From: Vibrio gallaecicus
GTDB taxonomy: Bacteria; Pseudomonadota; Gammaproteobacteria; Enterobacterales; Vibrionaceae
DNA length: 64,000 bases
Direction of reading: 5' to 3'
Assembly: GCF_024347495.1 (NCBI RefSeq)
Contig: NZ_AP025491.1
Coordinates: 682,001 to 746,000, forward strand
Below, in pieces: positions 38,941-62,813 of this stretch. The notes beneath the pieces are model-generated. The model was not told the origin of the DNA and searched no databases. It saw nothing but the letters and a program-made list of their open reading frames with translations. How positions within the stretch are numbered: position 1 is the stretch's first letter; each line of letters opens with the position of its first letter. Made by a program: the position numbers and the translations under genes.

Positions 38941-38946
38941 AGAGCG

Positions 38947-40470: not shown

Positions 40471-40533
40471 AAGGGATAACCATGTTGAAGTGAAGAGGGA
40501 ATTGGATGCCTTGACCATCCAAACGCTGAGTGA

Positions 40534-40776: not shown

Positions 40777-40792
40777 GGTTATTCCTTAGCCA

Positions 40793-40909
40793 TTAAGTAG
40801 AGATTTCGGCTGCTTGTTTTAAAGCAAGGATTTGCTTTCCAACTGAGAAGCCGATACAGATTACAGTGCCAAATGCACCGACAATAAACTCAATATCTTG
40901 AATATTCAT
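40793..40909 (-). CDS. Tiny membrane protein, pVII/pIX-like virion cap
   Basis: 38 residues from the ATG at 40909 (MNIQDIEFIVGAFGTVICIG...), with one membrane span and a basic-polar tail. The ATG overlaps the stop of the preceding tiny gene (ATGA) and has a purine-rich stretch before it. A longer frame starts at 40978, but the overlap arrangement favours the short form. Position beside the coat gene suggests one of the two end-cap proteins. Confidence 0.65.
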   Translation of the reverse strand: MNIQDIEFIVGAFGTVICIGFSVGKQILALKQAAEIST

Positions 40910-41004
40910 CGCTGACCACCCCAGATTATTGATAGTAAAAGGCATATGAAAAGAGCACTGATAAATATCAGAAGCCAAAGAGAATCGAATTGCTCAGCAC
41001 TCAT
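40906..41004 (-). CDS. 32-residue membrane protein, second virion cap candidate
   Basis: Read directly from the minus strand: MSAEQFDSLWLLIFISALFI continues as a hydrophobic helix and ends SIIWGGQR. The ATG at 41004 has AAGGCGG upstream, and its TGA overlaps the next gene's ATG. Two tiny single-span proteins in tandem between ssDNA-binding protein and coat gene are exactly the pVII-pIX arrangement of Ff-type phages. Which is which cannot be told. Confidence 0.7.
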   Translation of the reverse strand: MSAEQFDSLWLLIFISALFICLLLSIIWGGQR

Positions 41005-41017
41005 AATTCAAACCGCC

Positions 41018-41329
41018 TTATTTAGCTAGTACTGGTAAATCGAATAGGTGGAAGCCGTTTAAAGCAACGTGCTTACCATCTTCATTACCAAAACTAAATT
41101 CTTTGTATTCCACGTTGAATTGCATTCGGTTACCAACGCATGATTTTAAAATGTCCCCAGCTTTACCACCGGCCCAAAGTTCTTGGCTAATTTTTACTTC
41201 GATGGTGTTCGTTGGGTTAGTTGTGATTAGCTTTAATTTACCGACCGTAATAGATTCACCCGTGCCACGAGCTGCCTTTGTTTCTTGAATGATATCGGTA
41301 GCGTCTAAAATCAAACCTTCGAGTTTCAT
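41018..41329 (-). CDS. ssDNA-binding protein (pV-like, DUF1293)
   Basis: 103 residues (MKLEGLILDATDIIQETKAA...FDLPVLAK). A compact, beta-rich profile and position right after the replication gene match the DUF1293 ssDNA-binding proteins of Vibrio filamentous phages, which coat the viral strand and switch from double-strand to single-strand synthesis. Confidence 0.8.
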   Translation of the reverse strand: MKLEGLILDATDIIQETKAARGTGESITVGKLKLITTNPTNTIEVKISQELWAGGKAGDILKSCVGNRMQFNVEYKEFSFGNEDGKHVALNGFHLFDLPVLAK

Positions 41330-41403
41330 AATGTATTTCCTTTCTTGACGTAAAATTTTTAAAGATAAAAGCGGGAGTTATTGACACAAGTCCAAGGGCG
41401 AAA

Positions 41404-43386: not shown

Positions 43387-43388
43387 GA

Positions 43389-43685
43389 TTAACGCTCCAA
43401 CCCAAAGAACGTACAAAATTGCTCAAGCTCTTGGTCGTTATCAAACGTAAAAGTGAATGCGTCACTAGAATTAGTTTCGGAGCTGGCAAACGAAACAGTA
43501 TGAAAACGTTCTTCGCCAATCATTCGATGACCAAATTTAAGATCGCTAGCTAAGAATTCAAAATAGATTTCTAATGGTGAATTGTGGAGAGACACAGACG
43601 CGTGCGTAAAATATGGAGAGTAAGAAAAACAAACGTGTTCAGATTTAAGAACAGAGCCATATTCGACAGGTTCAACTTGAAACAT
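43389..43685 (-). CDS. Small protein upstream of the replication gene
   Basis: 98 residues from the ATG at 43685, behind AAGGTGG. Beta-rich, acidic near the end (FTFDNDQELEQFCTFFGLER). No family recognised. First gene of the leftward phage transcript, ending two bases before the replication start, so probably translationally coupled to it. Confidence 0.6.
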   Translation of the reverse strand: MFQVEPVEYGSVLKSEHVCFSYSPYFTHASVSLHNSPLEIYFEFLASDLKFGHRMIGEERFHTVSFASSETNSSDAFTFTFDNDQELEQFCTFFGLER

Positions 43686-44438: not shown

Positions 44439-45959
44439 ATGAGTTACACAACTTTGGAAGTAACAAGGAATAAGCAGCAAACTCTTATCTTGGTTGATGA
44501 TGAGACCACCCTGCCGTCCTTGTTCGTCACAATCTACGCATTGAATAACCTGCGCCGGAAACGGTTGAGCACTCAGGGGAACATCCATCGTTCACTGAAG
44601 TTCTTCTATGTATATTTCTTCAAGAAGCACAAGGTTACTTTCGATTACGCCTTCCACGAGGCTGGCTACAATATTTCGAAGTTTATTGATGAGCTTGATG
44701 GCTTCTTCACTTACCTCCTTGGTCAGCAGCACCTTAATAATGAGGAGGATATTGTTGGTCTTGGTTTTATGCACTCAGGTATCACTAAGGCAAACAAAGT
44801 AACCTACGGGGTGCACATCAGCCATGTAGGCGGTTTTTTTAAGTACCTCAACTACCGATACATGAATGTGTCATACCAAAATATGTCACCAATGGAAGCT
44901 CATCAAATTAGCAAGGCAAACAAAGAGAACCTTGCTTATGCAATAAATAACTTCAATAAGATTGAGGTCTCTCAGAACGAGCCTGCACACAGATACAAAA
45001 GTATCACGGAGAAGCAGAGCATTGAGCTGATGAACATGTTAATCCCCTCCACTCCTGCTTTCACTGATGTTGATACTAATCAACTCGTTGATGCCGTAGT
45101 TAACCCTGTAAATCCATTTGAAGAAGGTTTTCAGCAATATCGTAACTATCTCATACATAGATTTATGTACAACTATGGTTTGCGTGTCGGTGAGGTGCAG
45201 TTGCTCATGACAGACAGCATTGCCGAAACGCTGCCAGACTCACGAGGTGAAACTCAATTTGTGATGGTTGTACAGGATCTACCGGATGAGGTTGATGACC
45301 CAAGGAAGCATAAGCCGTCAGTTAAGACAGAGCACTCATATCGTCGAATAGAGCTGACTGAAGACGACTTCATCATGGTTGAGATCTTTAACAATCGTTA
45401 CCGTGCTCCGCTGTTTGAAGAAAAAGCTATCGAAGACCATGGCATCCTCTTTATCAAAGGGTCTGGAAAGCTAACCCCATTCTCCTACGATGGAATTAGC
45501 ACAATCTATAAGAAAAAAATCGACCCTTCGTTCATTCACCTCCATCCCTATTACCGAACTGAGGCGAAAAAGAAGATCGATTATATGGTGAAATTGACTC
45601 CCCATGTAGGCCGACACACTTGGGCATACATTACATTGGAATACATCTACAACGAAATTCTGAAAGAGAATTTAATGATGGCTAGTGACTACGGAATCCG
45701 CGCAAGGATGAATGGTGAGCTAGATGCCGCTGTCGAAAAACTGCGATCATTAGGAGGCTGGTCTGTGACCAGTAACGTGCCTCTAAAGTATGCCAAACGA
45801 TTTGTCGAAATGGTGAGTAACGAGAGTAATAAGAATCGAACTAAACGTAATGATTGGCAGGCCGCTATACCTGCTCCGAAGAGTGAAACGAAATCAACTT
45901 ACAACCCTTTAGAAGATGATGGATATGATGAAGACATCCCATTCGACTTATTCGATTAA
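44439..45959 (+). CDS. intA: Tyrosine recombinase IntA of an SE-type element
   Basis: 506 residues, all catalytic positions visible: Arg249 in NYGLRVGEVQ, His389 and Arg392 in TPHVGRHTWA, Trp441 in LGGWS (in place of the second His) and the nucleophile candidate Tyr451 in LKYAKRFVE. N-terminal ~170 residues are the core-binding region. The start at 44439 is ATG. Its end overlaps tfp by 44 bases. Expected to cut and rejoin element ends together with IntB. Confidence 0.82.
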   Translation: MSYTTLEVTRNKQQTLILVDDETTLPSLFVTIYALNNLRRKRLSTQGNIHRSLKFFYVYFFKKHKVTFDYAFHEAGYNISKFIDELDGFFTYLLGQQHLNNEEDIVGLGFMHSGITKANKVTYGVHISHVGGFFKYLNYRYMNVSYQNMSPMEAHQISKANKENLAYAINNFNKIEVSQNEPAHRYKSITEKQSIELMNMLIPSTPAFTDVDTNQLVDAVVNPVNPFEEGFQQYRNYLIHRFMYNYGLRVGEVQLLMTDSIAETLPDSRGETQFVMVVQDLPDEVDDPRKHKPSVKTEHSYRRIELTEDDFIMVEIFNNRYRAPLFEEKAIEDHGILFIKGSGKLTPFSYDGISTIYKKKIDPSFIHLHPYYRTEAKKKIDYMVKLTPHVGRHTWAYITLEYIYNEILKENLMMASDYGIRARMNGELDAAVEKLRSLGGWSVTSNVPLKYAKRFVEMVSNESNKNRTKRNDWQAAIPAPKSETKSTYNPLEDDGYDEDIPFDLFD

Positions 45960-47580
45960 TAACCCTGCACAAGAGCCACTACATGGTCACTCGCTATTCA
46001 CCGCTGAGCAGGTGGAATGGATTGATTCAATCAAGCTACCACAGCGGCTTCTCTTGTTGAGTGCAACGGAATTTGATGACCAGTTTTTAACTTTGACTAG
46101 CGATTGGCGATACCGTTTTTCTGGTGCAAACAAAGCCATCTTGTTTGCATCCGGTAAGAACTTCCGTGCTCTATCTTCATCTTCAATCAAGTTGCTTAAG
46201 CATCTGACAGTTGAATACATAAAAGAGAACTCTGCAAGTGGTGCCAACTGGTTTGCGGAAGGTTTAGCGAGGGTATTTTCGGAACTTGAGTCTGTTTCTC
46301 GTGAGAGCCTAATTGCCAAATTAAGGGAGCTAGTTGCTAAGGTTGACCGCAATGCGTCAGACAACAGCCATTTCTATTACACGCTCAATGCCCTTCGTAC
46401 ACTGGAGCGTCGTAATTTCTTTAAAAGCACTGGTGACAAAGGTGACCTTGAGGATTTGTTGCTGGAAGTACCTCGACCTAGGAATCCGCACTGGGGTCGG
46501 TATCAGAACCTAGACCTCGTTATTCCAGATGAAGTAAGCCTGATGATCGAGAACGGCGTTCAGCTATGGGCGTCAAAACTATGCCCGAAACTGGAGACTA
46601 AAGAGGCTAAGGTCAAGCATCTTGAGAAGGTCAAAAAAGTCGCAAAAATCGATGTCTTAAGAGATTGTATCATCACTGGCATCGTCTATTACGTTGGAGC
46701 GCGACCAGTTCAAATCGGAAAGATGGCTGGAGGTGACTATGTAGTAGACACCATGAATGAACATGGAATGCGTTATTCATTACTTGTGCCTTATGCAAAG
46801 AAGTCGAAATTGACTATTGACCGGGTTCGTATCGCTGTTCCTGAAGAGCTTGGGAAGCTGATCACCCTGTACAAGTACCTTGAGAAAATTGGGGATGAAG
46901 ACCCGCTATTCCCTACTAAGCTATCTTCGACTCCGATGGTTGATAAATCGATTAAGAGTATGCTGCTTAAGTTCTCCCCTAAGGAAATTCAGGAGGCTGT
47001 AAAAAACGAAGACTACAAACTGCCCGTTTATACCGCTAGTCTCTTTCGCCATAACGTGGGTCATTCTATGGCGATGAATGGTTCAAGTGCTGCTGAGATT
47101 GCGTATATCTTAGGACATTCCAACTACGTCGTTGCCGACAAATACATTGCAGCTACCCCCGAAATGGCTGACATCCGAGAGATGGCACTGGGTCGAAACC
47201 CTGTGTTCAAAAACATGATTGCGCTGGCATTGACTGGCAACCTAGTCCACAACACTAAGTGGAAAGGTCGTCGGGTTGCTGCCTCTATCGGCGGCAAGCT
47301 ACATCACCATATTGGCGGGTGCAATTACGAAGAAAACATCTGCCCATTCTCCCAAGGTCGTGGGTGCTATGGATGCCTGTACTTTATGCCCTTCACTGAC
47401 GGTGAGCACGAGGAAGTACTCGATTCATTCTTTGACGAGATTGATGAAGTCCGTCACGTAGCTGACGACACAGGTCAAGTACACCACCCACTGATGACTG
47501 AATTGGTTCGCAGGAAAGACCATGTGATTCAGGTAATTGCTCGTATTAAAATGGTTCAGGCTAAGGAAGAGATCGAATAA
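45916..47580 (+). CDS. tfp: Tyrosine-recombinase-fold protein (Tfp) of an SE-type element
   Basis: 554 residues with the recombinase fold but an altered active site. Arg263 (GARPVQIGKM), Arg378 (LFRHNVGHS), His401 (LGHSN) and Tyr410 (DKYIAA) are present. The His expected three residues before Arg378 is Ser375. A cysteine cluster near the end (Cys469, Cys476, Cys484, Cys487) looks like a metal site. This fits the accessory, possibly non-catalytic, Tfp role. The start is one of four closely spaced ATGs from 45916 on. Confidence 0.75.
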   Translation: MMDMMKTSHSTYSINNPAQEPLHGHSLFTAEQVEWIDSIKLPQRLLLLSATEFDDQFLTLTSDWRYRFSGANKAILFASGKNFRALSSSSIKLLKHLTVEYIKENSASGANWFAEGLARVFSELESVSRESLIAKLRELVAKVDRNASDNSHFYYTLNALRTLERRNFFKSTGDKGDLEDLLLEVPRPRNPHWGRYQNLDLVIPDEVSLMIENGVQLWASKLCPKLETKEAKVKHLEKVKKVAKIDVLRDCIITGIVYYVGARPVQIGKMAGGDYVVDTMNEHGMRYSLLVPYAKKSKLTIDRVRIAVPEELGKLITLYKYLEKIGDEDPLFPTKLSSTPMVDKSIKSMLLKFSPKEIQEAVKNEDYKLPVYTASLFRHNVGHSMAMNGSSAAEIAYILGHSNYVVADKYIAATPEMADIREMALGRNPVFKNMIALALTGNLVHNTKWKGRRVAASIGGKLHHHIGGCNYEENICPFSQGRGCYGCLYFMPFTDGEHEEVLDSFFDEIDEVRHVADDTGQVHHPLMTELVRRKDHVIQVIARIKMVQAKEEIE

Positions 47581-50163
47581 ATGGCTCTGGAAATTAAAGT
47601 AATAAATAACAAGCACGCAAAGAACCTTGTTGCCTACGTGGACAAACACAAAACGGCATTTCATGAGCGCCTTGAAGCCTACAATGCGGTTGGAGACTTG
47701 GACTGGGATGCAGCGTCTTGGCACTTTGGTGAAAAAGGTGTTGCGTGGCTAAAAGAAACCAAAGACCACGGCTTTAAATGGAGTGAAGTATCAAATCGCG
47801 TTAAAGGACTCACTAAAATGGAAATCTCTAAAGATTTTCAGGACTTTATGCGTGCTTACCACATGCATCAGGTTGTGATTTCCAGCGGTTTACCATCAGG
47901 TTCAACTCTAGATAAGCCATTGCAGATCATGAAGCGTTGGTACTGGGAAATGGTTACAGAAACGGGTCAAACGCACCCTATGTACCTCACTGCCGATATC
48001 ATTCATGCTGCTATGGATCGCCATAAAGACAACTCAAAAAGCGCCCCTAACGTCAGTGACTATTGCGACGTTGCCGTAAATATTATCAAACTTCTTCGGA
48101 AGTATGATTTATTCATGGTGAATATTGAAGTCGAAAATAAGCACCCTTGCCGTAGCTCCTCTGTTGGGACAAAGGAAAAGAAGAAGGCTTCCGAATTAAG
48201 TCCAGACGACACCCCTGACAAAAAGCTGATTTCCATCCGTGCATTCATGGCTGTTATTGAGCTGATGGCACTGGCAGAAAACGACTATCAGCGCATCTTT
48301 TACAACATGTTGCTACTTTGCATCATCTGTGGCTTCCGCTTCCAAGAAGTCATGTCGATGAACATGGATTCATTGGTTAAAAGGGATATCACCGAAGAAA
48401 GTAAGCGTCAGCACGCCATTGACCAAGGTTGGCCTACTTACAAACTAGGTATTGAATACCTTGGTGCAAAAAAAGCAGGTTGGCGAATTCATTGGCTGGC
48501 ACCGACCTCTTACCCAGTGGTTGAGATGATTTATAAGCAGGTGGAAGAACTGACCTATGGTTTCCGTGAGACCATCAAAGCCTTTAGAGAATCTGACTTC
48601 ACCAACTTCTTGCCTAGTAAAATCGTAGAGCTTTCGGAAGACCTGATTGAATGCCGTGAACTCTATGACATCATGTTTACTGGTACAGGCGGTCGTCGTA
48701 ATGTGCTCTATAAATCTATCAGCGTTTCTATGGAATCATGGGCTGGTTACAAACCGATTGTGAGTGGTGAAACGGAGAAATTTAACGTTCAAGGTAAATA
48801 TTTTACCAAAGAACAATTAAATGATTATGTTTACCAGCGCTATGCCCAAACCAAGAACTTCACTAAGGGGCACCAATGTGTGTTGTCGCTAAAAGACAGT
48901 GGTGACTGGGAGCATTTCAACTACGAAGATTTAATGTTCATTATGCCGGAAGGTGCTTTTGGTATTGGGCAAGATTTTGTTTCGTTACAGAACATAGTTC
49001 CTCTGGATGAACATGCCGTTGAGGCATGGCTAGGCGGTGCCAATAACCGTAAATCTCTCTTCGACTACTTCAACTTGTTTGAAGATGACGGTTCTCGTAT
49101 CCAACTGAAAAAGCATGTGCCAAGGCATAACATCAATACCTTCTTGGCTATCGCAGGTGTGACTGACCATATTCAAGCCATCTTGATGGGTCGTGTTGAT
49201 ATCACCCAGAACAAGCATTACCAACACCAAGCACAATCGCAGTCTTATCAGACAGCCTCATTAGCAATGTCCATGCTTGAGAAAGCATATGATGAAGGCA
49301 AAAATGCTCTTGCAAAAGAAAACCAGTTGTCTCTATTTGATGCTGATGGAGAGCCTGAACCTCGCCCAAAACCATCGGTTTCTGCTGTTCAAGAACCTCC
49401 AAGGACTGAGGTTAGTCGCCGGATGTCAGCTCTTGCTAAATCAGCTATGCCAACGAAGAACACTGGTGTCGCCAACGTTAAAGCATCAACCTCAATGGCG
49501 ATAAATCCAAAACTAAGCGTGGAGCACAACCTTAAACAAAACATGCAGACCTTTGGCGAAACTACTGACGAAGTAGCTCACTATATCGCAGGTGCAATGT
49601 CGGATAAGTTCCTCCCTGAACTTAAAGCTGCCCACGAAAAACTAGTAGCACAAGGCATGGCGGAAAAGGCGAAGGAACTGCTGGAGCGACATGCAAAACT
49701 ACACCCTTTAGGGTTTGGTGCTTGTACGCGTGACGTAGCACGCTGGGGCTGCCCTCATGCCGTGAAATGTCAGTCAGGGTTGCCTTGTGGGTACTTCACC
49801 CTTACAGGACGTTTGGGTGAAGCTGAGGAAGCATCTCGGCGTCTGGCTATCAAGCAAGCCGAGGTTATTGAGCTTCGTAAATTCGCTGAAGCTGACCCTA
49901 ATTTCAAATTGGCTCTGGAAGAACAAGAAGAGGCTCTGGTTGTGCTGGAAGCTCTGGAAGCAGACGCCATCGAGGCTCAAAGCGCCAAGAAACTAGTAGA
50001 TCTCATGTCAGACGACAAAGACAACCCGCTAGGCCGAATCATGGCGCGAATTAATGAACAAATGCTAATTGGTAAAACCCCGAAAACCCTTGCCGACCTG
50101 TTCTTCATCGAACAAAAACGCTTGGAGAGAGATGCAGCCCAGAAGGAATCAAATAATGGCTAA
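47581..50163 (+). CDS. intB: Large tyrosine recombinase IntB of an SE-type element
   Basis: 860 residues starting directly after the tfp stop (TAAATG). Catalytic positions: Arg253 (IICGFRFQEV), His512 and Arg515 (KKHVPRHNINT), the MGR at ~538 and Tyr547 (NKHYQHQ). Residues ~620-700 form a variable linker. A Cys/His cluster follows (FGACTRDVARWGCPHAVKCQ and GLPCGYF), then a long coiled coil to the C-terminus. The cluster echoes the one in Tfp. Confidence 0.8.
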   Translation: MALEIKVINNKHAKNLVAYVDKHKTAFHERLEAYNAVGDLDWDAASWHFGEKGVAWLKETKDHGFKWSEVSNRVKGLTKMEISKDFQDFMRAYHMHQVVISSGLPSGSTLDKPLQIMKRWYWEMVTETGQTHPMYLTADIIHAAMDRHKDNSKSAPNVSDYCDVAVNIIKLLRKYDLFMVNIEVENKHPCRSSSVGTKEKKKASELSPDDTPDKKLISIRAFMAVIELMALAENDYQRIFYNMLLLCIICGFRFQEVMSMNMDSLVKRDITEESKRQHAIDQGWPTYKLGIEYLGAKKAGWRIHWLAPTSYPVVEMIYKQVEELTYGFRETIKAFRESDFTNFLPSKIVELSEDLIECRELYDIMFTGTGGRRNVLYKSISVSMESWAGYKPIVSGETEKFNVQGKYFTKEQLNDYVYQRYAQTKNFTKGHQCVLSLKDSGDWEHFNYEDLMFIMPEGAFGIGQDFVSLQNIVPLDEHAVEAWLGGANNRKSLFDYFNLFEDDGSRIQLKKHVPRHNINTFLAIAGVTDHIQAILMGRVDITQNKHYQHQAQSQSYQTASLAMSMLEKAYDEGKNALAKENQLSLFDADGEPEPRPKPSVSAVQEPPRTEVSRRMSALAKSAMPTKNTGVANVKASTSMAINPKLSVEHNLKQNMQTFGETTDEVAHYIAGAMSDKFLPELKAAHEKLVAQGMAEKAKELLERHAKLHPLGFGACTRDVARWGCPHAVKCQSGLPCGYFTLTGRLGEAEEASRRLAIKQAEVIELRKFAEADPNFKLALEEQEEALVVLEALEADAIEAQSAKKLVDLMSDDKDNPLGRIMARINEQMLIGKTPKTLADLFFIEQKRLERDAAQKESNNG

Positions 50164-50656
50164 AGTACCACGTACTCGTAATGCAGATGACAAAGTGATT
50201 CAGGGTAAAGAGCTTGATGCCTACATCAAAGCTGAGCTGCAAGCGATGGTGCGTGAGGGGCTTGAAAAGTCCCCCATTCAGCCATCAACACTCCATGCAC
50301 GCCTGAAGGCTAAAGGTATTATCAAGGGCGGGGTCAGCACCCTGAGTACCCGTAGAGTTATTATCAATGAATACAAACTTCGCCAGCATAACAACCATGA
50401 GGATGGAAAGCGCGAATTGACTGCTGACGAAAGAATCATGTTAGCTCAAGGACGAACTGGAGCCGCCTACATCAGTAAGGCTGACCGTCTCGATAGTGCG
50501 CTTAAAGACTACAAGGCGCGTTATGAGCGTAATATTTTAGCTGTCGCAGACATCATTGAATATGTTGACTCCCACCTTCCAGTTAGTGTTGAGACCTTAC
50601 TTGCAGAGGATCTTATTCGTGAGTTGAGAGTATATGGTAAGGGAAATGAAAAATGA
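50156..50656 (+). CDS. srap: SE-associated recombination auxiliary protein (Srap-like)
   Basis: 166 residues from the ATG at 50156, which overlaps the intB end by eight bases and has AAGGA nearby; the frame is open upstream inside intB. Basic and helical (KVPRTRNADDKVIQGKELDA, STLSTRRVIINEYKLRQHNN), consistent with a DNA-binding accessory protein. Identification rests on its position as the fourth gene after intA-tfp-intB. Confidence 0.65.
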   Translation: MAKVPRTRNADDKVIQGKELDAYIKAELQAMVREGLEKSPIQPSTLHARLKAKGIIKGGVSTLSTRRVIINEYKLRQHNNHEDGKRELTADERIMLAQGRTGAAYISKADRLDSALKDYKARYERNILAVADIIEYVDSHLPVSVETLLAEDLIRELRVYGKGNEK

Positions 50657-52099: not shown

Positions 52100-52576
52100 T
52101 TGAATACAAAACGCGCCCCCTCTCCTGAGTATCAAATCACACCAGAAATTTTTGTGCGCAATGCATGGGATATGGACTTTAGAATATCTACTGCAGACTC
52201 CTCAGCACTTCCTCCTGGTTTCATAAAAAACACAACATCACTAGCTGAAAAGGAAGGTATCATCGTTCACTCTTTAGACTTTTCTGAGTACGAATCGGCA
52301 GTAGCCGCATTAACCGCAAAAGAAAATTCACGTTTCCTTGAAGCCATTGAAAATGATGGAGGCAATAAATCATTACTATGGTTTGTAAATTGCGATTCGC
52401 TTGCACCTTTGAACGTTGATATAACCTATTCCCTTCGTACTGTATTGACGACACGAATAGGAAGTAACACCCAGTCAGTATTCATTTCTACTAAGGCATC
52501 ATTATTAATGATGTTCGCTAACCCCGAAGCACCTTTTTACCAAAGTCACTTTAGACTAACGGGATATAGTAGTTAA
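52100..52576 (+). CDS. Uncharacterised 158-residue protein
   Basis: Soluble, slightly acidic, no recognised family. Features are NAWDMDFRISTADSSALPPG and LLWFVNCDSLAPLNVDITY. No membrane segment or signal. It is separated from the graspetide operon by 203 bases containing that operon's probable promoter, so it may or may not belong with it. The start may be TTG or GTG-type; the first codon in the frame at 52100 is TTG. Confidence 0.5.
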   Translation: MNTKRAPSPEYQITPEIFVRNAWDMDFRISTADSSALPPGFIKNTTSLAEKEGIIVHSLDFSEYESAVAALTAKENSRFLEAIENDGGNKSLLWFVNCDSLAPLNVDITYSLRTVLTTRIGSNTQSVFISTKASLLMMFANPEAPFYQSHFRLTGYSS

Positions 52577-52779: not shown

Positions 52780-53133
52780 ATGTTAGATACCCATAAGCCG
52801 TTTATTCTTAACTACGCAACAGAAAGAGTTCATTCAGATGTTCCATCTTTAGGTGGGCACTACTGCGAAAACGAACATATGTGGGTTGATAACGAATCCA
52901 AGACGCCAATTATAAATCTAGTTGATAGAAATCACCCTGAATTAGTCACAAAAACAGACGTTCAAATTGAAAGCGATGATCAGTCCTACGCTTTTGAATT
53001 GCTGACAAAAACCAAAGTTCAAGATGAGAGTGATGACAATGATATTAGGTTATGCCATTTAAACGAGCTTCTCACTAAAACAGCAGTGATGCAAGAAAGC
53101 GACGATAACTCCTACAGTTTTGGTATGTTATGA
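52780..53133 (+). CDS. Graspetide precursor peptide with three core repeats
   Basis: 117 residues behind AAGGAAC. The leader covers residues 1-53 and includes aromatic-rich YATERVHSDV and CENEHMWVDNES. Three core repeats follow at residues 54-67, 73-86 and 96-109. Each has the pattern Glu-Leu-x-Thr-Lys-Thr-x-Val-x-x-Glu-Ser-Asp-Asp. Paired Thr donors followed by Glu/Asp acceptors are what omega-ester (graspetide) formation needs, and the ligase gene overlaps by four bases. The product should have repeated small macrolactone or macrolactam rings. Confidence 0.82.
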   Translation: MLDTHKPFILNYATERVHSDVPSLGGHYCENEHMWVDNESKTPIINLVDRNHPELVTKTDVQIESDDQSYAFELLTKTKVQDESDDNDIRLCHLNELLTKTAVMQESDDNSYSFGML

Positions 53134-54083
53134 TTCTTTTAGTTACTAATAAGCGAGATCTAACTACTGACTATGTTGTCAGAGAACTGAAGCTTAGAGG
53201 TGTTTCATATGTTAGGCTTAACACAGAGACACTAAATGAGCATAGGTGTTCTATCGGTTATGACTCGATAGATGATTGGAAAATTGGTGATATCAACGGT
53301 AAGAAAGTCACCTCTGCTTACTTTAGAAGACCCTGCCCTACAACAACTTCTCACCCCACACTAACTGAAGGGGAATCAGAGTACTTAGATATGGAATGGC
53401 TATCATTTCTTAAGAGCATTTATTATCGGCTTGATAGAAAGTGGTTAAGCTCTCCTACCAACATAGCTTTAGCTGAAGATAAGCCAAGACAGCTATTATT
53501 AGCAAGTTCTCTTGGTTTCAACGTACCACAAGGTATTATTACTAATGATGTTTTTACAGTTATGGCGAGAACAGCGAATGAAAACCTCATAGCCAAGCCA
53601 TTGAGACAAGCACTTTTAAAGGAAAAGAATGAAAGTGTTGTTTTCACTAGCCAGATACCAACACTTACACCTGAGTATGACGAATCAATAGGTTTTGCTC
53701 CCTCCATATATCAACAAGAGATTTCAAAAAAATATGATGTTCGCGTAACTGTAGTTGGCGATAAAGTGTTTCCTGTAGCAATTTGGTCACAAACATCTGA
53801 AAAAACAAAAGTTGACTGGCGTCAAGGTGGAAGAATTGATCTGCTCCACGAGCATATAGATATACCAGATGATTTGAAAATGAAATGTATCAGGCTAGTT
53901 AGATCTTTGAACCTGAGGTTTGGTGCTATCGATTTGGTATGTGACTTGGATGGAGTTTATTGGTTTCTTGAGATTAACCCCAATGGCCAGTGGGCTTGGA
54001 TTGAGAATCAGACTAAGTTGCCAATTGCGTCATCCATCGTTCACGAGTTAATGAAAATTAGTGAGTATAATTATGAATCTTGA
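53130..54083 (+). CDS. ATP-grasp macrocyclase of a graspetide cluster (MvdD-like)
   Basis: 317 residues. The N-terminal domain (MILLVTNKRDLTTDYVVREL) is followed by the ATP-grasp fold: NENLIAKPLRQALL carries the ATP-binding Lys, then QEISKKYDVRVTVVGDKVF, and IDLVCD and FLEINPNGQWAWIE carry the metal-binding acid and Asn residues. EINP(N/S)GQW is the signature of microviridin-type ligases. It should activate side-chain carboxylates of the precursor and join them to Thr or Lys. Start ATG overlaps the precursor stop (ATGA). Confidence 0.9.
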   Translation: MILLVTNKRDLTTDYVVRELKLRGVSYVRLNTETLNEHRCSIGYDSIDDWKIGDINGKKVTSAYFRRPCPTTTSHPTLTEGESEYLDMEWLSFLKSIYYRLDRKWLSSPTNIALAEDKPRQLLLASSLGFNVPQGIITNDVFTVMARTANENLIAKPLRQALLKEKNESVVFTSQIPTLTPEYDESIGFAPSIYQQEISKKYDVRVTVVGDKVFPVAIWSQTSEKTKVDWRQGGRIDLLHEHIDIPDDLKMKCIRLVRSLNLRFGAIDLVCDLDGVYWFLEINPNGQWAWIENQTKLPIASSIVHELMKISEYNYES

Positions 54084-54762
54084 CTTGTTTTGGCCGACAA
54101 TTTCATATGGTTCTGAAAATGCAAAAAAAGAGCTCCTTGAAAGAGACTTAGAACTGTTAAATGATTTGTCAGTAAATGACGCGATAGGTGTTACATTAGA
54201 TGAATCTCGGCGGTTGTACGATCAAGAACAGGCAAGGCGATCGACCGTAGATAGTAAAGCTGGTACATATATCGCAGCTTCAACTGCACTTATACCAATA
54301 CTGATATCATTGGCTTCAATTATTACTAGTTTTGATACTCTCATCGAATTCAATGGCTTAAGTGTTTTGGGGCTACTCACAACTGTTGCGTTTATGTTTG
54401 CCTTAATTATGTCGATTAGGTGCGTGATGTGGTCCCACAAAGCGCTTAAAGTTTCATCCTTCCACTTGTTAAGCTGGCAAGAGTTAATTACTCATGACAA
54501 CCCCGAAACATTACAACTTCAATTAGCCAAAAAGCTGTTGAGCGCTTTACGTATCAATTATGATTTAACCAATAGCACAGTTACTTGTGTAAAGATGGCT
54601 CATGCCCTGCTCACTAGCGCTATGTTTTGGTTGATCGTTGGTACGCTATTACAAGCATTTGCTTATTTACTAAATGGTTCTGAAGCGCTTGGTGGCCTAC
54701 ATAATAGAGATGCAATCAGCCCGATCATTAATATCTTTAATATCAAATCAGACCCCATTTAA
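54073..54762 (+). CDS. Three-helix membrane protein coupled to the graspetide genes
   Basis: 229 residues from the ATG at 54073, overlapping the ligase gene by 11 bases (a GTG at 54061 is an alternative). An acidic cytosolic N-terminus is followed by DSKAGTYIAASTALIPILISL (helix 1, ~64-86), a second helix (~94-118) and a third (~177-201). The Lys-Ala-x-x-x-(hydrophobic) entry to helix 1 resembles membrane effectors of nucleotide-signalling defence systems such as Pycsar TM proteins. An exporter or immunity role is also possible, although no ATPase is present. Confidence 0.7.
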   Translation: MNLDLFWPTISYGSENAKKELLERDLELLNDLSVNDAIGVTLDESRRLYDQEQARRSTVDSKAGTYIAASTALIPILISLASIITSFDTLIEFNGLSVLGLLTTVAFMFALIMSIRCVMWSHKALKVSSFHLLSWQELITHDNPETLQLQLAKKLLSALRINYDLTNSTVTCVKMAHALLTSAMFWLIVGTLLQAFAYLLNGSEALGGLHNRDAISPIINIFNIKSDPI

Positions 54763-54995: not shown

Positions 54996-57900
54996 CTAAG
55001 ACAGCAGCCCATTATCAAGCTCTTTAACCGCACTCATTGCTGTATAAACTTCTGAATTCAACAGCTCATCCCAGATGTCTAAACAAGTACTTATTGCCTC
55101 ATCATCTTCATCTTCTGAAGCTTCATCGTAAAGACGTTGCAACACGCTTAGGAGGGAAGATTCCCTAATATGAAGATGTCGATGCTTAAAAAACTCATCA
55201 TTCTGATCAACTTTAACGATGTTTTTTACTAGATCCAACAAAGATTCACTTATACCGGTGAGCATGCCGGGAAAGCTTTCCAGCTTCTTAAATATCTGAT
55301 ATATACTGTGTTTTGCAGCTTTTGACTTCACAAGTTCACTAAATAGGAACGTCGAATTATGCTTTTTCCAGTAGCTATCATGCTGAACACAATTACCTAT
55401 TTGTTGCAGAACATCTTTATCCTCGTCGTTTAGCAAAGTTATGTATGACGACTCTATTTTGCCAATTCGGTCATGGTACTTATCTTCCCGTAAGAATTGG
55501 GAAAGCACTGAAGCGCACCCACTTCTTAACTCTTTGTCCCCTCTCAGAACCAAAGTTAGCTCATGTTTAAATAAGTCATTGAAAAACCAGCGAGCATAGA
55601 TCTGCCTAGCTGCTTCTTTGTTGATATCCAAATACTGAGAGCCAAGCATTCTAAGAACAAGTTTCACGTATTCATTGACGTAAGTGCTCTCGAAACCTTG
55701 GTTGAAAAAGTAATTTGCACCATATGCTCCAGTGACCCGAATATCTTTGGTGCATAACTCAATAAATTTAGAATGAGCAAATGGACTATCGTAATTTAGA
55801 TAAGGCAAGATTAACTCTAGGGCTGACATCTTGACTGCGGGGTGTTTATCAGCAATTGCGTGATTTACTAAGTACCTATTTTCGTTTGCGAGTGATTCGT
55901 TTTTGAAAAAAATCTTAGCTATTGCGTGATATGCCTGACCCCGAACACAATTGATTGAGTTATCCATCAAAGACTTTGCTGATGCAACATCAGTAGTATG
56001 TCCTTTGTCTGAGCTCCAAACATTGAGTTTGTTAAATTCAGGGTCTCTGGAATTGCGCGCCAAATTTAGCAGTAGGTTAAGAGTTTTTGTATCTGAGGTC
56101 AGCGATCGGCAGCTAAGTAATTTAACTAAAGAACGTTCACGCTCACATTCACACTCATTTTGGGGGAAATGCTCGATAACCTTTTCCAATAAAGTATTAC
56201 TACATTGGGACCAATCCTCTTTGTAATCCTTATGAGCTTTTTCTTTACTAGAGTCCGCTATCCCTCGAAAAAATGCAGTTATATATCGAGGATCTATATT
56301 TTGGGGCAACAACAATGCAAGGTTTGCGAATCTGCTTGGTTCATTACAAACAGAATCCTCTAGAGTGCGAGAGAACTGTGTTATAGTTGACTCGGACATT
56401 ACTTCTTTACCTACTTGCTTCCAGTTTCTACCAATAGATGGCTTTTCAGGAGATAGAATTAGCTTCGACCAAGACTTATTAGAAAGTTTGTTTCCGATAG
56501 GTAATGGTGAAGTAATTATCCCCCCTGTAATTTGATAATTTGAACAAAAGTCAAAGGTTGAATAATTGATAAACTTCCGCTCCAGAACCGTAATTAATTG
56601 TGCAGTGGCAGTAGAGATACGGTGTTGATCGAGTTTAGGTAACAAAAAATATTGAGCACTTCCCCAATAACTATAGTCTGACCCTCTTCGTCTTGTCTCC
56701 AAAATCCGCTTAATTTGCTCTATGTTCATGTCACTTTTTAAGCGGGTGATCGATTCTTCTAGCTTTGTAAAATGTCCGTTGGAGCAACTTTTTGAAAACT
56801 TCGATATTAGTTTTCCAGGCAATATCCAAACTGGTTCAAGACGTGTGTTACCACACGATAAGTGCGAATTTGGACGACGCAGGATCCAATCTATGACTGT
56901 ATCAGCGTACTCTGGAGATAAATTAAGTAATAGTCTAGCGACTAAGTTTACGGTGACTGGATTTTTAATCGCTAAGTAAGGCTTTATGAGCTCGTATAAT
57001 ATTCCAGAATCAGTTTGTAGGTTTTCTCCCGCCTTTTCTATCAGTTGAAACATGCAAAATGTTAGGTTATGGTCTATCTCATAATCATCAGCTTTATCCT
57101 TATGTAACCAAGTCAAAACCGATTCATGTTCACCTTCTGATTCCGCTATATCAGTGATATTTCGAAGTAAACGCGTCAATACCTCTTCTGGAACTTGTTC
57201 AGCGACGACCCACATGTCTTCTAACTCTGTTAGAGACCAGTTTTCGCTTTGTGTGATTTTCCGATGCTCTCTAATCTCATATGAATAACTATCCTTACAG
57301 ATAACCTCTCTGTAATGACTCAAGAGAGCTTCAATTAATGATAAAGCTTGATATGGACGTTTCTTAGACAAGTTTCGCCAATCTATATAATTTACAGAAC
57401 AGCCTTTTTGAATAAGTTCAAGCCTTAAGTCGAACATATCGTCAGAATCATCTTCAATAGCCCAACACAGACTACTACATACTTTTTGATTCCAACTATC
57501 TGACCTATCTACATATGGGCGTAAAGTAGCCACCACTAACGCTGGCTTAAGCTCTGAAATGGAACTTAGGAGGCTGATAGAAGTGTCAATTAGCTTTTCA
57601 TCAGAACTATTTAGCCAAGCGCCCAAAATGCCCTTCTCACATAGGCATTCAACGATTTCTGGATTTTTAAAGCAAGTCGTAGAGGTAAACTTCTGAATTA
57701 ACTCGGAATCACGAACTAACTTGTCGATTAGTTTTCTTGCGGGGGCTTTAATGACCTTTAAGTCCTTTAGTGAATTAAGGGCTAAGAACTTCAGGTGAAA
57801 GCGAACGTTATCGCTAAATAAAACTGCATCAATACTAGAGCAGTAATATTTTTGGTTAGCTTCTAGCAACATATTTAATGCGTACCTAAGGTGCTCTCTT

Positions 57901-59684
57901 TTATCCAGAGTTTGGTTGCTATACCCACCCAGTTCATATAGAAGCTTTTCAGAAGAGTCACTACCTGCTCGATATAACTTTGAACCGACTTGATAATCAT
58001 ATAATGCCTGATGCCTAAAACTTATTCGTTGTTCCTGGCTAGTTAATACTCCCACTGACATTAATACCTCTAAGGTCCTTCGCGAACCTACACGAATAGA
58101 GTTCAATGATACAGACAAAGAACCTTGCTTCATCATTAAACCTACCAGCTTATCAATAAGCTGTTCGGCTTCGTCTATTGATAGATGGTGGGCATGTATT
58201 TGACTTAATCGATCATCCCAAAAATTCTTAACCAACTCTAGTTTGTTGTTAAAGCTAGGTGCATTCTGCGTCCGGTGTGCAATCGTTAGGTATATACCAA
58301 GCCATAAAGGTATCTTAAGAATCTCTTTCTTGACGGAAGAAAGTTGTGAGTAGGTCTCAAATGGCGATATCAACTCGACGACTTTTTCCTCACTCAACGT
58401 AGATAATTTAACCTCATGTAATGAATCCGAAATACTATTCAGCCAACTTGATAAGGCTATGTCTTCGTTTAGCTCAAAATCCCGCGAAGCCAAGACGATT
58501 GATATGTCGGCACCTTCTTTACGCAGCGCGATCGTTTGTCGGATTAAATCCTGGCAAATATGCAGCGCTACATTAGAATGTGATCCAGTCCAACGAATAG
58601 CGTCGAGCTGGTCCAATATAATGACAACTTTGTTGTGCTTTGATATTGCACTTAAGCTGAATGGAGGTGAGTAAGGGAACCCTAAAGCCCTTCCATACGC
58701 ATCTAAATTATCGACTGGATTTCGTCGATCAAGTCTCACAGGGACACTTATCGCCCCCTTGTTACGAAGGTGATGGTGCAGTTCGAGAAGCAATGAACTT
58801 TTTCCAACGCCAGCTTCTGCTCTAACGAGCGTTACAGGATTTTCTTCCAAAGAATTGATGATGTTATCCAGCTCTTTTCGTTTAATAAGCTCATTACATA
58901 TTAAGAATGGTTGGATTGACTCCTCAAATTCTTTGGAAAGATTTTCAACAACTGAAAGTACTCTTTCATCTTCTGGTAGACTTCTTGCAACAAAACCGGC
59001 CTTTGTTAGATCACTTAATAGTTGGTTTGCCGTAATCTTGTTACGTAATTTATTATATTCGGCGGGATAAGATTTGAGGTACTGGACTAATTTGCTACTG
59101 CTTCCAATGAACAGAGACGAAGCTTTATCTTCTAATTCATCTTGGCTATGTTTGTTCAAATCATAACGGACAATCTTGAAGCGTTGCAGAAACAGCATTG
59201 CTTTTCGAAGATCCTCTTCTAAGTTTAAGGACAAGCCAAGATACCCACATAATGAATTGAAGCATTTTTCTCTATCTTTACTTTGTTTTACTTGATGTTC
59301 GAGGAAATCTATTGGTATTGCATTACTATTCAATGCACTTTCACATAAATCACTGATAATTCTACTTGAAAGTGGTGAAACCAAGTGAAACTCTGTAGCC
59401 CCTCTATTGATTTGAAAATTTGCGTTTTTTAAAATTTTGGTACTGTGAAGTTTAGATAAATTCCAGTATTCATCATTACTAGAGCTCGCTTTACACTGGT
59501 GATGTTCGTGTGAACCATCGTTATTACCTATTACCAAGTCAACTCCGACCTCGTCATCCCCAATTGGCTCTACAGTCACATAACTCGTCTTTTCTTGTAA
59601 TAGACGTAATAACTGATAAGCAATCCAGTTAGATTCATATCTATTACCAAGCTTTTCTGCATATCCACCCGCTTCTAGCGCCAT
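54996..59684 (-). CDS. Avs-like STAND NTPase with N-terminal nuclease domain
   Basis: 1562 residues. N-terminal PD-(D/E)xK-like nuclease (residues ~1-130): Asp49 in VGVDLVI and Glu60-x-x-Gln-x-Lys65 in EHHQCK. STAND/NACHT ATPase next (~255-560): Walker A AEAGVGKSSLLL with Lys295, Walker B VVIILDQLDAIRW around residue 358, and sensor Arg in ASRDFEL. The remaining ~950 residues are helical repeats, the usual ligand sensor. The layout matches antiphage pattern-recognition nucleases (Avs and relatives), which oligomerise on a phage protein and degrade DNA. Which phage protein it senses is unknown. Confidence 0.85.
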   Translation of the reverse strand: MALEAGGYAEKLGNRYESNWIAYQLLRLLQEKTSYVTVEPIGDDEVGVDLVIGNNDGSHEHHQCKASSSNDEYWNLSKLHSTKILKNANFQINRGATEFHLVSPLSSRIISDLCESALNSNAIPIDFLEHQVKQSKDREKCFNSLCGYLGLSLNLEEDLRKAMLFLQRFKIVRYDLNKHSQDELEDKASSLFIGSSSKLVQYLKSYPAEYNKLRNKITANQLLSDLTKAGFVARSLPEDERVLSVVENLSKEFEESIQPFLICNELIKRKELDNIINSLEENPVTLVRAEAGVGKSSLLLELHHHLRNKGAISVPVRLDRRNPVDNLDAYGRALGFPYSPPFSLSAISKHNKVVIILDQLDAIRWTGSHSNVALHICQDLIRQTIALRKEGADISIVLASRDFELNEDIALSSWLNSISDSLHEVKLSTLSEEKVVELISPFETYSQLSSVKKEILKIPLWLGIYLTIAHRTQNAPSFNNKLELVKNFWDDRLSQIHAHHLSIDEAEQLIDKLVGLMMKQGSLSVSLNSIRVGSRRTLEVLMSVGVLTSQEQRISFRHQALYDYQVGSKLYRAGSDSSEKLLYELGGYSNQTLDKREHLRYALNMLLEANQKYYCSSIDAVLFSDNVRFHLKFLALNSLKDLKVIKAPARKLIDKLVRDSELIQKFTSTTCFKNPEIVECLCEKGILGAWLNSSDEKLIDTSISLLSSISELKPALVVATLRPYVDRSDSWNQKVCSSLCWAIEDDSDDMFDLRLELIQKGCSVNYIDWRNLSKKRPYQALSLIEALLSHYREVICKDSYSYEIREHRKITQSENWSLTELEDMWVVAEQVPEEVLTRLLRNITDIAESEGEHESVLTWLHKDKADDYEIDHNLTFCMFQLIEKAGENLQTDSGILYELIKPYLAIKNPVTVNLVARLLLNLSPEYADTVIDWILRRPNSHLSCGNTRLEPVWILPGKLISKFSKSCSNGHFTKLEESITRLKSDMNIEQIKRILETRRRGSDYSYWGSAQYFLLPKLDQHRISTATAQLITVLERKFINYSTFDFCSNYQITGGIITSPLPIGNKLSNKSWSKLILSPEKPSIGRNWKQVGKEVMSESTITQFSRTLEDSVCNEPSRFANLALLLPQNIDPRYITAFFRGIADSSKEKAHKDYKEDWSQCSNTLLEKVIEHFPQNECECERERSLVKLLSCRSLTSDTKTLNLLLNLARNSRDPEFNKLNVWSSDKGHTTDVASAKSLMDNSINCVRGQAYHAIAKIFFKNESLANENRYLVNHAIADKHPAVKMSALELILPYLNYDSPFAHSKFIELCTKDIRVTGAYGANYFFNQGFESTYVNEYVKLVLRMLGSQYLDINKEAARQIYARWFFNDLFKHELTLVLRGDKELRSGCASVLSQFLREDKYHDRIGKIESSYITLLNDEDKDVLQQIGNCVQHDSYWKKHNSTFLFSELVKSKAAKHSIYQIFKKLESFPGMLTGISESLLDLVKNIVKVDQNDEFFKHRHLHIRESSLLSVLQRLYDEASEDEDDEAISTCLDIWDELLNSEVYTAMSAVKELDNGLLS

Positions 59685-61261: not shown

Positions 61262-61436
61262 TGCGGTGTCCAGTCTTACTGGAGCAGATCAATATGGTCT
61301 ATTGCGTCTTGTTACAGAAAAGGAACAAATTAGACTAACAGCACTTTTTATATTGATAATAAGTTATTAAGAAATAGTATTTTTTAGTAGTATCGGACAC
61401 AAAGAACATATGCAATTATTTTCTATAGGAGTCCGG

Positions 61437-62813
61437 ATGAGAATTCAAGAAGAGTATAAGAAATCGGGATATTTTTGGTTACCCGGAAATGAAGAAAAAA
61501 AAATACCCGGTACTTTAACAATAAACGATGGTGGCAACACCCAACTAGAAGTCGTGGGGCTTTTTGATGACAGTATTGAAGCTTTAAATGGTGACGATGA
61601 TCTTAGTCGTATCATTGGGCATGTTGAAAATGATGGCTTTGTTACTCTTGAAGACTGTTTTTATACAAACAAGAACATTGGATTTGGTGGAATTTCAAAG
61701 TCAAAGGTTTTAGTTAACAAAGTTTTAAGTGGAGCGGCCTGGGACAAAGATGAAAAAGTAAAATTTAACACGTTGTCATTTTCGGTTGATTGTTTAGATG
61801 AATGGGTTGGAATCAGCGGAATTAATGTGGATACAGCCCCTGACTACAAGACGGCAACAATCAGCTATGAACCACCTGAGGCACTAAGCTATGCACTTGA
61901 TAACGGCATGGAACTCAAACTGTGCTTTGCTTATACTCTCCCTGGCTTCCCTACGCTTCAAGAGGCGAAAATCACACAACGTGCCTATTTTAAAATAATT
62001 TCTAATGAATTGCGTGAGTTATCAGAATTTACAATTCTTGCATATAAGATCACAAACTTAATGTGTTTTGCAATGAATGAGACGGTGTCAATGAAAACAC
62101 TATCAGCCACTTCTAATGAAATTAAGCGAAATAATATCCCACAACCTATCAAGATTTATTACCAAAGTATTCCATACACGGAAAAAGAGCCTACTAAAAC
62201 TCGATATGATATGTTGTTCAGTTTTAGGACAATCCAAGACAATGCGGGTCAAATTTTCAACAATTGGATAAATGCATATGACTTTTTATCACCTGCATTG
62301 GGCCTCTATTTTTCAACTAAAATGGGTGCACAGAAATACCTAGACGGTAAATTTTTAGCTCTTGCTCAAGGATTAGAGACATATCACCGTAGAACTAGTA
62401 ACGAAACACTTATGGACCCAGAGGATTTTGGTACCTTAGTAGATACTATTCTAGAAGGCTGCCCAGAAAACAATCGGGACTGGTTAAAAGACCGTTTAGT
62501 CCATGGGAATGAAATAAATTTGGGTAAGCGACTTAAGAAAATTGTTGAACCTTTTAAAAAACACCTTGGCAGTAGCAAAGATAGAGGCAAGCTCCTACGC
62601 AAAATAGTAGATACAAGAAACTACTTAACTCATTATAATGAGGAACTTAAGGGTGCAGCTGCTAATGGCAAGGACCTTTTTAACTTATGTTCGAAAATGG
62701 AGCTAATTTTTAACTTACATTTTTTAAAGGTTGTAGGGTTTACTGATAAAGAGATAGAAATTGTGGTAGAAACCTCCCAGCCTTTAAAGGCTAAAATGAT
62801 GAACATAAATTGA
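61437..62813 (+). CDS. apeA: ApeA-like HEPN abortive-infection protein
   Basis: 458 residues from the ATG at 61437 with AGGAG upstream; an earlier ATG at 61410 lacks one. The N-terminal domain (YKKSGYFWLPGNEEKKIPGTLTINDGG) matches the ApeA N-terminal region. The C-terminal HEPN domain has the RNase motif RNYLTH (Arg394-x4-His399) preceded by LAQGLETYHRR. HEPN RNases of this family stop phage growth by cleaving RNA, probably tRNA, after sensing infection. It is convergent with the third DUF3653-like gene, like cargo in the filamentous prophage. Confidence 0.85.
   Translation: MRIQEEYKKSGYFWLPGNEEKKIPGTLTINDGGNTQLEVVGLFDDSIEALNGDDDLSRIIGHVENDGFVTLEDCFYTNKNIGFGGISKSKVLVNKVLSGAAWDKDEKVKFNTLSFSVDCLDEWVGISGINVDTAPDYKTATISYEPPEALSYALDNGMELKLCFAYTLPGFPTLQEAKITQRAYFKIISNELRELSEFTILAYKITNLMCFAMNETVSMKTLSATSNEIKRNNIPQPIKIYYQSIPYTEKEPTKTRYDMLFSFRTIQDNAGQIFNNWINAYDFLSPALGLYFSTKMGAQKYLDGKFLALAQGLETYHRRTSNETLMDPEDFGTLVDTILEGCPENNRDWLKDRLVHGNEINLGKRLKKIVEPFKKHLGSSKDRGKLLRKIVDTRNYLTHYNEELKGAAANGKDLFNLCSKMELIFNLHFLKVVGFTDKEIEIVVETSQPLKAKMMNIN

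Follow-up and report, generated by a model that had tools for sequence, protein, structure and literature searches.

The window, by which we mean the whole 64,000-nucleotide stretch of Vibrio gallaecicus DNA analysed here, contains a compact three-gene unit that encodes a repeat-containing precursor, an ATP-grasp ligase with the signature EINPNGQW and a membrane protein with three predicted helices (Table 1). The precursor and ligase genes overlap by 4 nt, and the ligase and membrane protein genes overlap by 11 nt. An alternative in-frame GTG start of the membrane protein at 54061 would give a protein of 233 aa. The unit that the window shares with its relatives includes no exporter or protease gene and no peptidase or ABC gene. 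An earlier note on this DNA had described the same three components, with three repeats in the precursor, the same overlaps of 4 and 11 bases and no exporter or protease, and our analysis bears it out on each of these points. It had also called the cluster graspetide-type with a core unlike the microviridin and plesiocin patterns, and this too holds: the ligase class, the leader motif and a core of Thr/Lys and Glu/Asp are those of a graspetide, and the core motif TKTx4ExDD differs from both patterns. Overall, the sequence evidence supports assignment of the unit to a graspetide-type cluster, with ring formation as a prediction.

The unit is flanked by a probable mobility module and by two candidate defence proteins. 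In the recombinase-type trio, the second gene matched the NCBIfam integrase NF041502 (E 3e-25, below cut-off) and the first gave a XerA-like match (E 3e-4, below cut-off); both also carried weak Pfam Phage_integrase matches, and the third gene had no match. The trio presumably resembles the gamma-Mobile-Trio elements. All Pfam matches of the STAND-type NTPase were below cut-off. The statement in the earlier note that the neighbours are antiphage genes is retained only in part: they are defence-like, but the STAND-type NTPase and the ApeA-like HEPN protein belong to candidate families only.

Table 1. Positions of the three-gene unit and neighbouring features in the window
Feature	Position	Strand	Details
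Recombinase-type trio (506, 554 and 860 aa, overlapping/abutting) plus small gene	44439..50656	+	probable mobility module
Precursor gene	52780..53133	+	117 aa, leader plus three core repeats
Leader motif PFILNY	52798..52815	+	fits the published motif Phhx(1,2)h
Core repeat 1, TKTDVQIESDD	52948..52980	+	TKTx4ESDD pattern
Core repeat 2, TKTKVQDESDD	53005..53037	+	TKTx4ESDD pattern
Core repeat 3, TKTAVMQESDD	53074..53106	+	TKTx4ESDD pattern
ATP-grasp graspetide synthetase gene	53130..54083	+	317 aa
Three-helix PycTM-like membrane protein gene	54073..54762	+	ATG start, 229 aa
Predicted transmembrane segment 1	54271..54327	+	residues 67-85, directly after DSKAG motif; hydropathy
Predicted transmembrane segment 2	54340..54396	+	residues 90-108; model helix 95-125
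Predicted transmembrane segment 3	54595..54651	+	residues 175-193, inside model helix 144-204
STAND-type NTPase, candidate defence protein	54996..59684	-	1562 aa; nSTAND3 E 8e-4; PADLOC PDC-M54A E 6e-15
ApeA-like HEPN candidate defence protein	61410..62813	+	ApeA_NTD1 E 2e-62; HEPN_Apea E 1e-37; PADLOC PDC-S58 E 5e-97

The precursor family and its core motif

The window precursor leader reads KPFILNYATER...GGHYC...MWV, and Phhx(1,2)h is the leader motif published for graspetides (PMC8939145). A profile built from nine precursors matched 303 proteins at E<=1e-3, of which the best 120 were read; none of these 120 carried a precomputed Pfam domain. In the same best 120 of the 303, the exact motif TKTx4ExDD occurred 414 times, compared with 0 in 100 shuffles, and 414 of the 429 TKT triplets had ExDD exactly four residues later. 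Leave-one-out counts in these 120 proteins gave 414 T, 6 S and 2 I at the first Thr (n = 422), 414 K, 3 I and 2 V but never Arg at Lys (n = 419), 414 T and 4 S at the second Thr (n = 418), Glu in 414 of 415 cases, 414 D and 2 N at the first Asp (n = 416) and 414 D, 4 E and 3 others at the second Asp (n = 421). Swaps of Ser for Thr and of Glu for Asp are to be expected if the hydroxyls and carboxylates at these positions form rings. Between TKT and ExDD, the four intervening residues were mostly variable, the best kept being Val (233/422). A slightly looser pattern counted four repeats in 72 of the 120 proteins, three in 44 and two in 4; in the 18 uncut loci described below, a relaxed pattern gave one (L054), two (L032, L042 and L044) and up to four repeats. 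The leader motif was recovered by a simple pattern in 93 of the best 120 precursors, and GG or PG preceded Tyr or Phe within the first 80 residues in 76 of them, which marks a possible cleavage site.

Microviridin and plesiocin, whose ligases are MdnB/MdnC and PsnB, respectively, resemble the window's unit in the ligase family by sequence and in the expected Thr/Lys to Glu/Asp side-chain rings, and plesiocin is also repeated. However, their core pattern is different, an effector-like membrane partner is present only here, and the unit in the window has no adjacent acetyltransferase, protease or ABC exporter. A plain microviridin cluster was rejected on the different core and the lack of an exporter or protease.

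The ligase clade and recurrence of the unit

The window ligase matched NCBIfam TIGR04187 (E 1e-67), TIGR04185 MvdC (E 2e-47) and MvdD (E 3e-42), and because every NCBIfam score lay under its curated cut-off, the ligase appears to represent a distinct subfamily. Its relatives in the PDB were 5ig8 (E 1e-28), 7mgv CdnC, 5ig9, 9bou, 7m4s AMdnB and 7drm, and K156, E281 and N283, which we take to be the catalytic residues, were invariant in all 10 aligned ligases. A ligase tree of 37 rows comprised 17 ligases of the TKT type, those of L013, L015 and L040 (which we take to be thuringinin-type from their core motif), those of L017 and L035, and 15 others. The 17 TKT ligases and the five named ones formed one clade with support 99/97, and every membrane-coupled ligase of the tree fell inside this single clade, with the 15 others outside. 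Within it, the L017 ligase gene precedes one for a protein of 352 aa with three hydrophobic segments, and the L035 ligase gene one for a coupled membrane protein of 216 aa; at L035, a TKT precursor was looked for and not found. Outside the clade, L018 and L019 have, by eye, an HlyD-like gene after the ligase, and L036 and L037 a methyltransferase-like one; in L028 and L029, the next gene encodes a protein of 353 or 335 aa that has one hydrophobic segment at most, and in L039, it is a 104-aa frame. No frame of at least 50 aa starts within 250 nt after the ligase in L016, L020, L027 and L038.

Thuringinin corresponds to precursor cluster 13 and membrane-protein cluster 18 of Makarova 2022, where thuringinin-specific membrane proteins were already noted and transport was guessed (PMC8939145). 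L013, L015 and L040 each have a ligase, an overlapping gene for a membrane protein of 356-368 aa and a downstream precursor with acidic Thr-rich repeats, which in L013 read TxxTxxxExxDxD by eye, and the leaders of L013 and L015 are of the same type as those of TKT precursors (MKPYIMNYSE; KPxIxxY-type). Compared with these three loci, which stand for the thuringinin type by motif rather than for thuringinin itself or the cluster 18 sequences, the window has the same ligase clade, several repeats and a homologous three-helix membrane protein whose gene overlaps the ligase gene. It differs in its core, TKTx4ExDD rather than the thuringinin core TxxTxxxExxDxD, in its gene order (precursor-ligase-membrane protein vs ligase-membrane protein-precursor) and in the length of the membrane protein, ∼230 aa. 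Within the clade, the TKT label needs two changes, which leaves room for an origin of the thuringinin-type core inside the clade.

The triplet was found uncut at 18 places (the window, L002-L007, L009, L010, L031-L034, L041-L044 and L054) in Pseudomonadota, Bacteroidota and phages, the hosts being Vibrio, Shewanella, Pseudomonas, Croceicoccus, Sinorhizobium, Agrobacterium, Allomuricauda and Mesonia. The L054 record carries no annotation and is flagged as unverified. At all 18 uncut loci, the ligase and membrane protein genes overlap by 4 to 20 nt, and the end of the precursor gene ranges from 26 nt within the ligase gene to 20 nt ahead of it. Seventeen of the 18 were gathered via the ligase with the membrane protein disregarded, the ligase searches having drawn on ten loci in genome contigs, ten in viral contigs, plasmids and two phage records; from the plasmids, four of the five matches at >=44% identity were taken in, and a second Croceicoccus plasmid (H3) and lower-identity matches were left out. 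Kept apart from the 18 are L008, in which a contig end cuts the precursor but the ligase and membrane protein are intact, the remnant L011 and L012/L025, broken beside an insertion sequence; L045-L049 are repeats of the L031/L032 contigs. The Leptospira phage record KF114876 (L053) has all three genes, with a membrane protein identical to that of L034. Among the viral-contig loci, L035 and L040 likewise couple a membrane protein to the ligase, although their precursor is of another kind or was not found, and L036-L039 represent other graspetide types. A one-off chance arrangement of three genes is ruled out by the 17 other places and the motif counts.

The search for the triplet across genomes that the earlier note had proposed thus returned 17 other uncut places, and a check for the pattern it had named as speaking against it, homologous clusters that lack the membrane protein and never lie near defence genes, did not refute it. 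The coupling of ligase and membrane protein that it had pointed out is constant in the clade but is not unique to the TKT core, as the thuringinin-type loci share it.

The unit is rare. In the window's taxonomic family, 10 of 197 genomes have some graspetide ligase at E<=1e-20, only two of them of this ligase family by score, and in its class, 4 of 369 genomes match at E<=1e-45, and of these the window's genome alone has a ligase of this family. Within the 197- and 369-genome sets, high-score membrane proteins occurred in the same two genomes only; weak matches occurred in three more genomes, and three of the weak matches (L087, L088 and L090) were short proteins without a ligase in the surrounding DNA examined. 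In the other of the two genomes (L025), the ligase is broken beside insertion-sequence copies and the membrane-protein frame is intact; a second ligase piece was not found in that genome, nor was a precursor in its 19.9 kb. Between the window and L002, dN was lowest for the ligase (0.08), followed by the precursor (0.10) and the membrane protein (0.19), against a dS of 0.6-0.9, which indicates purifying selection on all three genes. The faster divergence of the membrane protein fits an effector facing changing targets, but also simple looseness.

The membrane protein and its genomic surroundings

The AlphaFold model of the window membrane protein is helical and of medium confidence (pLDDT 76.9, pTM 0.70), with long helices at residues 38-84, 95-125 and 144-204. 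Its top PADLOC family was PycTM, with a weak match (E 0.007). Counting this one, PycTM was the top family in 9 of 11 membrane proteins of this or related families scanned singly, with E values of 3e-5 to 0.009 in eight of the ten further proteins and no PycTM match for those of L010 and L015; in the TKT family proper, it was the top family in three of four. No Pfam family matched more than two of 21 members at E<=0.1, and PF18967 matched 0 of 21; a precomputed tag on the window protein (P0001) lists PF18967. Comparison by hhalign of 30 membrane proteins with 21 PycTM proteins gave a probability of 10.8% and a score of 26.9 (shuffles <=13.5), whereas comparison with the thuringinin-type proteins gave 91.7% (E 8e-7, score 53.8; <=15.0 in 20 column shuffles) and with three stand-alone proteins 96.3%. 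Column shuffles are a lenient control because they destroy the hydrophobic pattern too. From these sequence comparisons, we conclude that the TKT-type and thuringinin-type membrane proteins are homologous and that the membrane proteins of the clade form one family of PycTM-like layout, with kinship to PycTM unproven.

PycTM (PF18967) and the membrane protein are alike in length, in having three hydrophobic segments and in a DxKA motif that precedes the first helix. However, in Pycsar, the partner of PycTM is a cyclase, whereas here it is a peptide-modifying enzyme and the sequence match is weak; none of the nine window proteins scanned from the operon and its surroundings matched a nucleotide or pyrimidine cyclase. 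Membership of Pycsar was rejected because no cyclase was found among these nine and the profile match was weak. The resemblance to defence effectors that the earlier note had seen therefore stands for the layout, but not as proven kinship.

Named defence genes lie near several of the relatives. Of L002-L010, the nine that come from genome assemblies, five carry Gabija, Shedu or Tmn genes no more than 8 kb away, and in L005, L006 and L008, a Gabija pair directly follows the membrane protein. In L005 and L006, OLD-type GajA and UvrD-type GajB start ∼40 nt past it; L006 also has Shedu (E 2e-209), and L005 has a partial Shedu match (E 5e-30) and a TIR protein nearby. L008 has GajA (E 7.5e-250), a UvrD helicase and a DUF4062 protein; L010 has Shedu (E 1e-148), a caspase-like protein (E 5e-20) and a ThsB-like TIR protein (E 2e-10); and L004 has Tmn (E 1e-72) and SLATT_5 (E 1e-28). 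The strongest GajA/GajB attributions were inferred, via Pfam for L005 and via 95% identity to L005 for L006; the L008 GajA was scanned singly and its helicase identified by Pfam only. L005, L006 and L008 are close kin, with ligases 93-97% identical. Comparing L008 with L005, the ligases are 93% identical, but the GajA proteins are only 21-29% identical over parts and the helicases have no BLAST match; near-identical cassettes thus lie beside two unrelated Gabija systems. Elsewhere, L044 has a candidate defence match (PDC-M01A, E 5e-45), L003 a weak DUF3644 match, and single proteins scanned alone gave weak matches at L002 and none at L009. No strong named defence system was attributed at L002, L003, L007, L009 and L041-L043, where most proteins were scanned in batch only (all of them at L007 and L041-L043), in a table that names no loci and lists 25 of 277 families.

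This PADLOC batch scan matched 277 families in 103 flank frames, a raw count; the frames were 101 of the 126 listed plus two annotated L044 frames, with L031-L034 and L054 left out and 25 plasmid frames, many antisense-looking, dropped by eye. By comparison, a control of 104 frames drawn from 13 random stretches of one genome, that of the window, matched 31 families; none of the 25 listed was Gabija, Shedu or Tmn, but matches of helicase, PspF type and GlgB type still occurred there, the strongest at E 3e-89. The viral-contig loci have a phage context: L031 has a tail-protein gene on one side and a weakly repressor-like gene on the other, L032 adjoins a DarB-like gene, L033 is near a baseplate wedge gene, and the contig of L034 carries a tail-fibre protein. 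Because these four loci come from a viral collection, they indicate that phages carry the cassette, not how frequently they do so. Overall, the cassettes lie close to recognised defence genes or among prophage cargo, and the check for defence islands that the earlier note had suggested came out in its favour, at five of nine assembly relatives in a small sample with one control genome.

Possible roles of the membrane-coupled unit

We posit a mobile, membrane-coupled graspetide module for conflict between phage and host or between elements, in which the cyclised peptide acts intracellularly with the membrane protein, and we judge the chances of this full reading to be slightly short of even; that the module has some role in phage conflict is, taken by itself, somewhat probable. 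By analogy with the ligase family, the precursor leader would recruit the ATP-grasp ligase, which would join the Thr/Lys/Thr to the Glu/Asp/Asp side chains in each TKTx4ExDD repeat, with up to three dehydrations per repeat. The simplest ring layout would be a nested hairpin of an inner Thr-Glu link, a Lys-Asp amide and an outer Thr-Asp link; the inner Thr-Glu spacing is as in plesiocin. The product would not be exported by the unit and would stay in the cell, with or without its leader. The coupling of ligase and membrane protein is kept across three phyla, two core motifs and two gene orders within a single ligase clade, and the cyclised peptide could bind the membrane protein from the cytosol and so determine its state, a step that we propose only tentatively. 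A phage cue would then shift this state, such that the membrane is perturbed and the infected cell stopped, as reported for PycTM, which reportedly disrupts the membrane on binding cyclic pyrimidines (PMC11224242). More doubtful still is the idea that a stapled repeat peptide replaces the cyclic nucleotide of Pycsar or CBASS as messenger or lock of a PycTM-like effector, with the thuringinin family part of the same system.

The transport reading of Makarova 2022 is the main rival: transport was proposed there because thuringinin loci mostly lack known transporters (PMC8939145). On this view, the graspetide would be secreted, whether as a bacteriocin, a signal or a protease inhibitor, and the membrane protein would be devoted to its export or would confer immunity to it. 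The homology of the thuringinin-type and TKT-type membrane proteins speaks for export, and the possible GG/PG cleavage site in 76 of the best 120 of 303 precursors for secretion. Small membrane proteins whose genes overlap a RiPP operon can be immunity genes, and such an overlap is present here. However, the protein has three helices and no significant transporter match in Pfam or the PDB, the shared unit includes no peptidase or ABC gene, and the cassettes reside in prophages and beside defence systems; overall, we regard export or immunity as unlikely.

The same prophage and defence-gene context would also suit an intracellular inhibitor of a phage or host protease, for example one for capsid maturation, that is anchored or placed by the membrane protein. 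Against such an inhibitor, which the earlier note had set aside and to which we still give a small probability, are two arguments of little weight, namely that the inner four core residues are mostly variable and that the membrane protein diverges at about twice the rate of the ligase, which is needless for an anchor. An arrangement akin to a toxin-antitoxin pair, in which a toxic membrane protein is restrained by the (modified) peptide and freed when phage shut-off depletes it, accords with the tight operon, the terminal position of the membrane protein gene and the mobile context. Yet the intact membrane-protein frame of L025, left with a broken ligase and no precursor found, argues against a constitutively lethal protein restrained by the peptide, unless its promoter is gone too, and this explanation is likewise very unlikely.

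Where their activity is known, graspetides mostly inhibit proteases, and to our knowledge, most graspetides have no known biological role. The chemistry here is of a kind already known; that membrane proteins of loci with two different cores are homologous, and that they have a phage-defence context, is not described in the portion of the literature drawn on. One graspetide branch, thuringinin-type included, is tied to one membrane-protein family, defence neighbourhoods and prophages, which makes its function directly testable. If the peptide gates the membrane protein, a bacterial immune signal would be a genetically encoded macrocycle rather than a nucleotide.

A RiPP precedent for intracellular phage defence is provided by lanthipeptides of Actinomycetota (PMC12360287, PMC12715929). 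Like the module posited here, these lanthiphages act inside the cell and lie in defence islands, and phage protection is reported for them; they differ in chemistry, enzymes and hosts, and the parts of these papers at hand describe no membrane partner. Further, Carter 2026 numbers graspetide groups up to 43, two of them new with long repeat precursors (PMC13097080). Groups 34 and 35 have such precursors, the partners of group 34 having no Pfam match, and the TKTx4ExDD family, set beside them by description only, may be one of the Carter 2026 groups.

Membrane-protein relatives outside the triplet

Stand-alone relatives of the membrane protein are encoded in other Vibrionaceae genomes (loci L087, L088 and L090), and examination of the flanking DNA of each locus revealed no ligase beside them; these proteins could be free-standing effectors. 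Two of the relatives lie on one contig, 66 kb apart, and near both we found a similar sequence (HSSKRVMQAL or HGSKRVMQAL), a likeness that suggests that this pair are gene cassettes. At L025, in a second Vibrio genome, insertion-sequence copies adjoin a broken ligase. The membrane-protein frame is intact there despite the broken ligase, and the precursor was not found at this locus.

Neighbors of the related clusters

In the thuringinin-type loci (L013, L015 and L040), the precursor gene comes after the membrane-protein gene. Because two large genes, serine recombinase-like by eye, lie immediately upstream of the L040 cluster, thuringinin-type clusters may be mobile as well. Directly upstream of a Pseudomonas triplet (L007) are a radical SAM-like enzyme and companions, possibly a second peptide-modifying cluster. 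A DUF4062 protein is encoded close to the L008 triplet and Gabija; the abstract of a 2026 preprint (PMC13174449) describes DUF4062 proteins as antiphage NADases.

Surroundings of the operon in the window

A small protein is encoded between a helix-turn-helix gene and the operon; its sole match, to PADLOC RmrA, is weak (E 0.001). An inovirus-like prophage adjoins the element.

Locations of features (L-numbers, within locus; others, window)
Feature	Location	Strand	Basis
Stand-alone relative	L087:1510-2196		
Stand-alone relative	L088:1474-2010		
Stand-alone relative	L090:1522-1995		
Radical SAM-like enzyme and companions	L007:3677-5845		enzyme by eye
DUF4062 protein	L008:5952-7001		E 4e-19
Small protein	52100-52576		
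Inovirus-like prophage	36309-43416	-	
Secretin-like	36309-37517	-	by eye
Zot-like	37511-38578	-	by eye
Replication protein	41407-43416	-	Phage_GPA, E 1e-81
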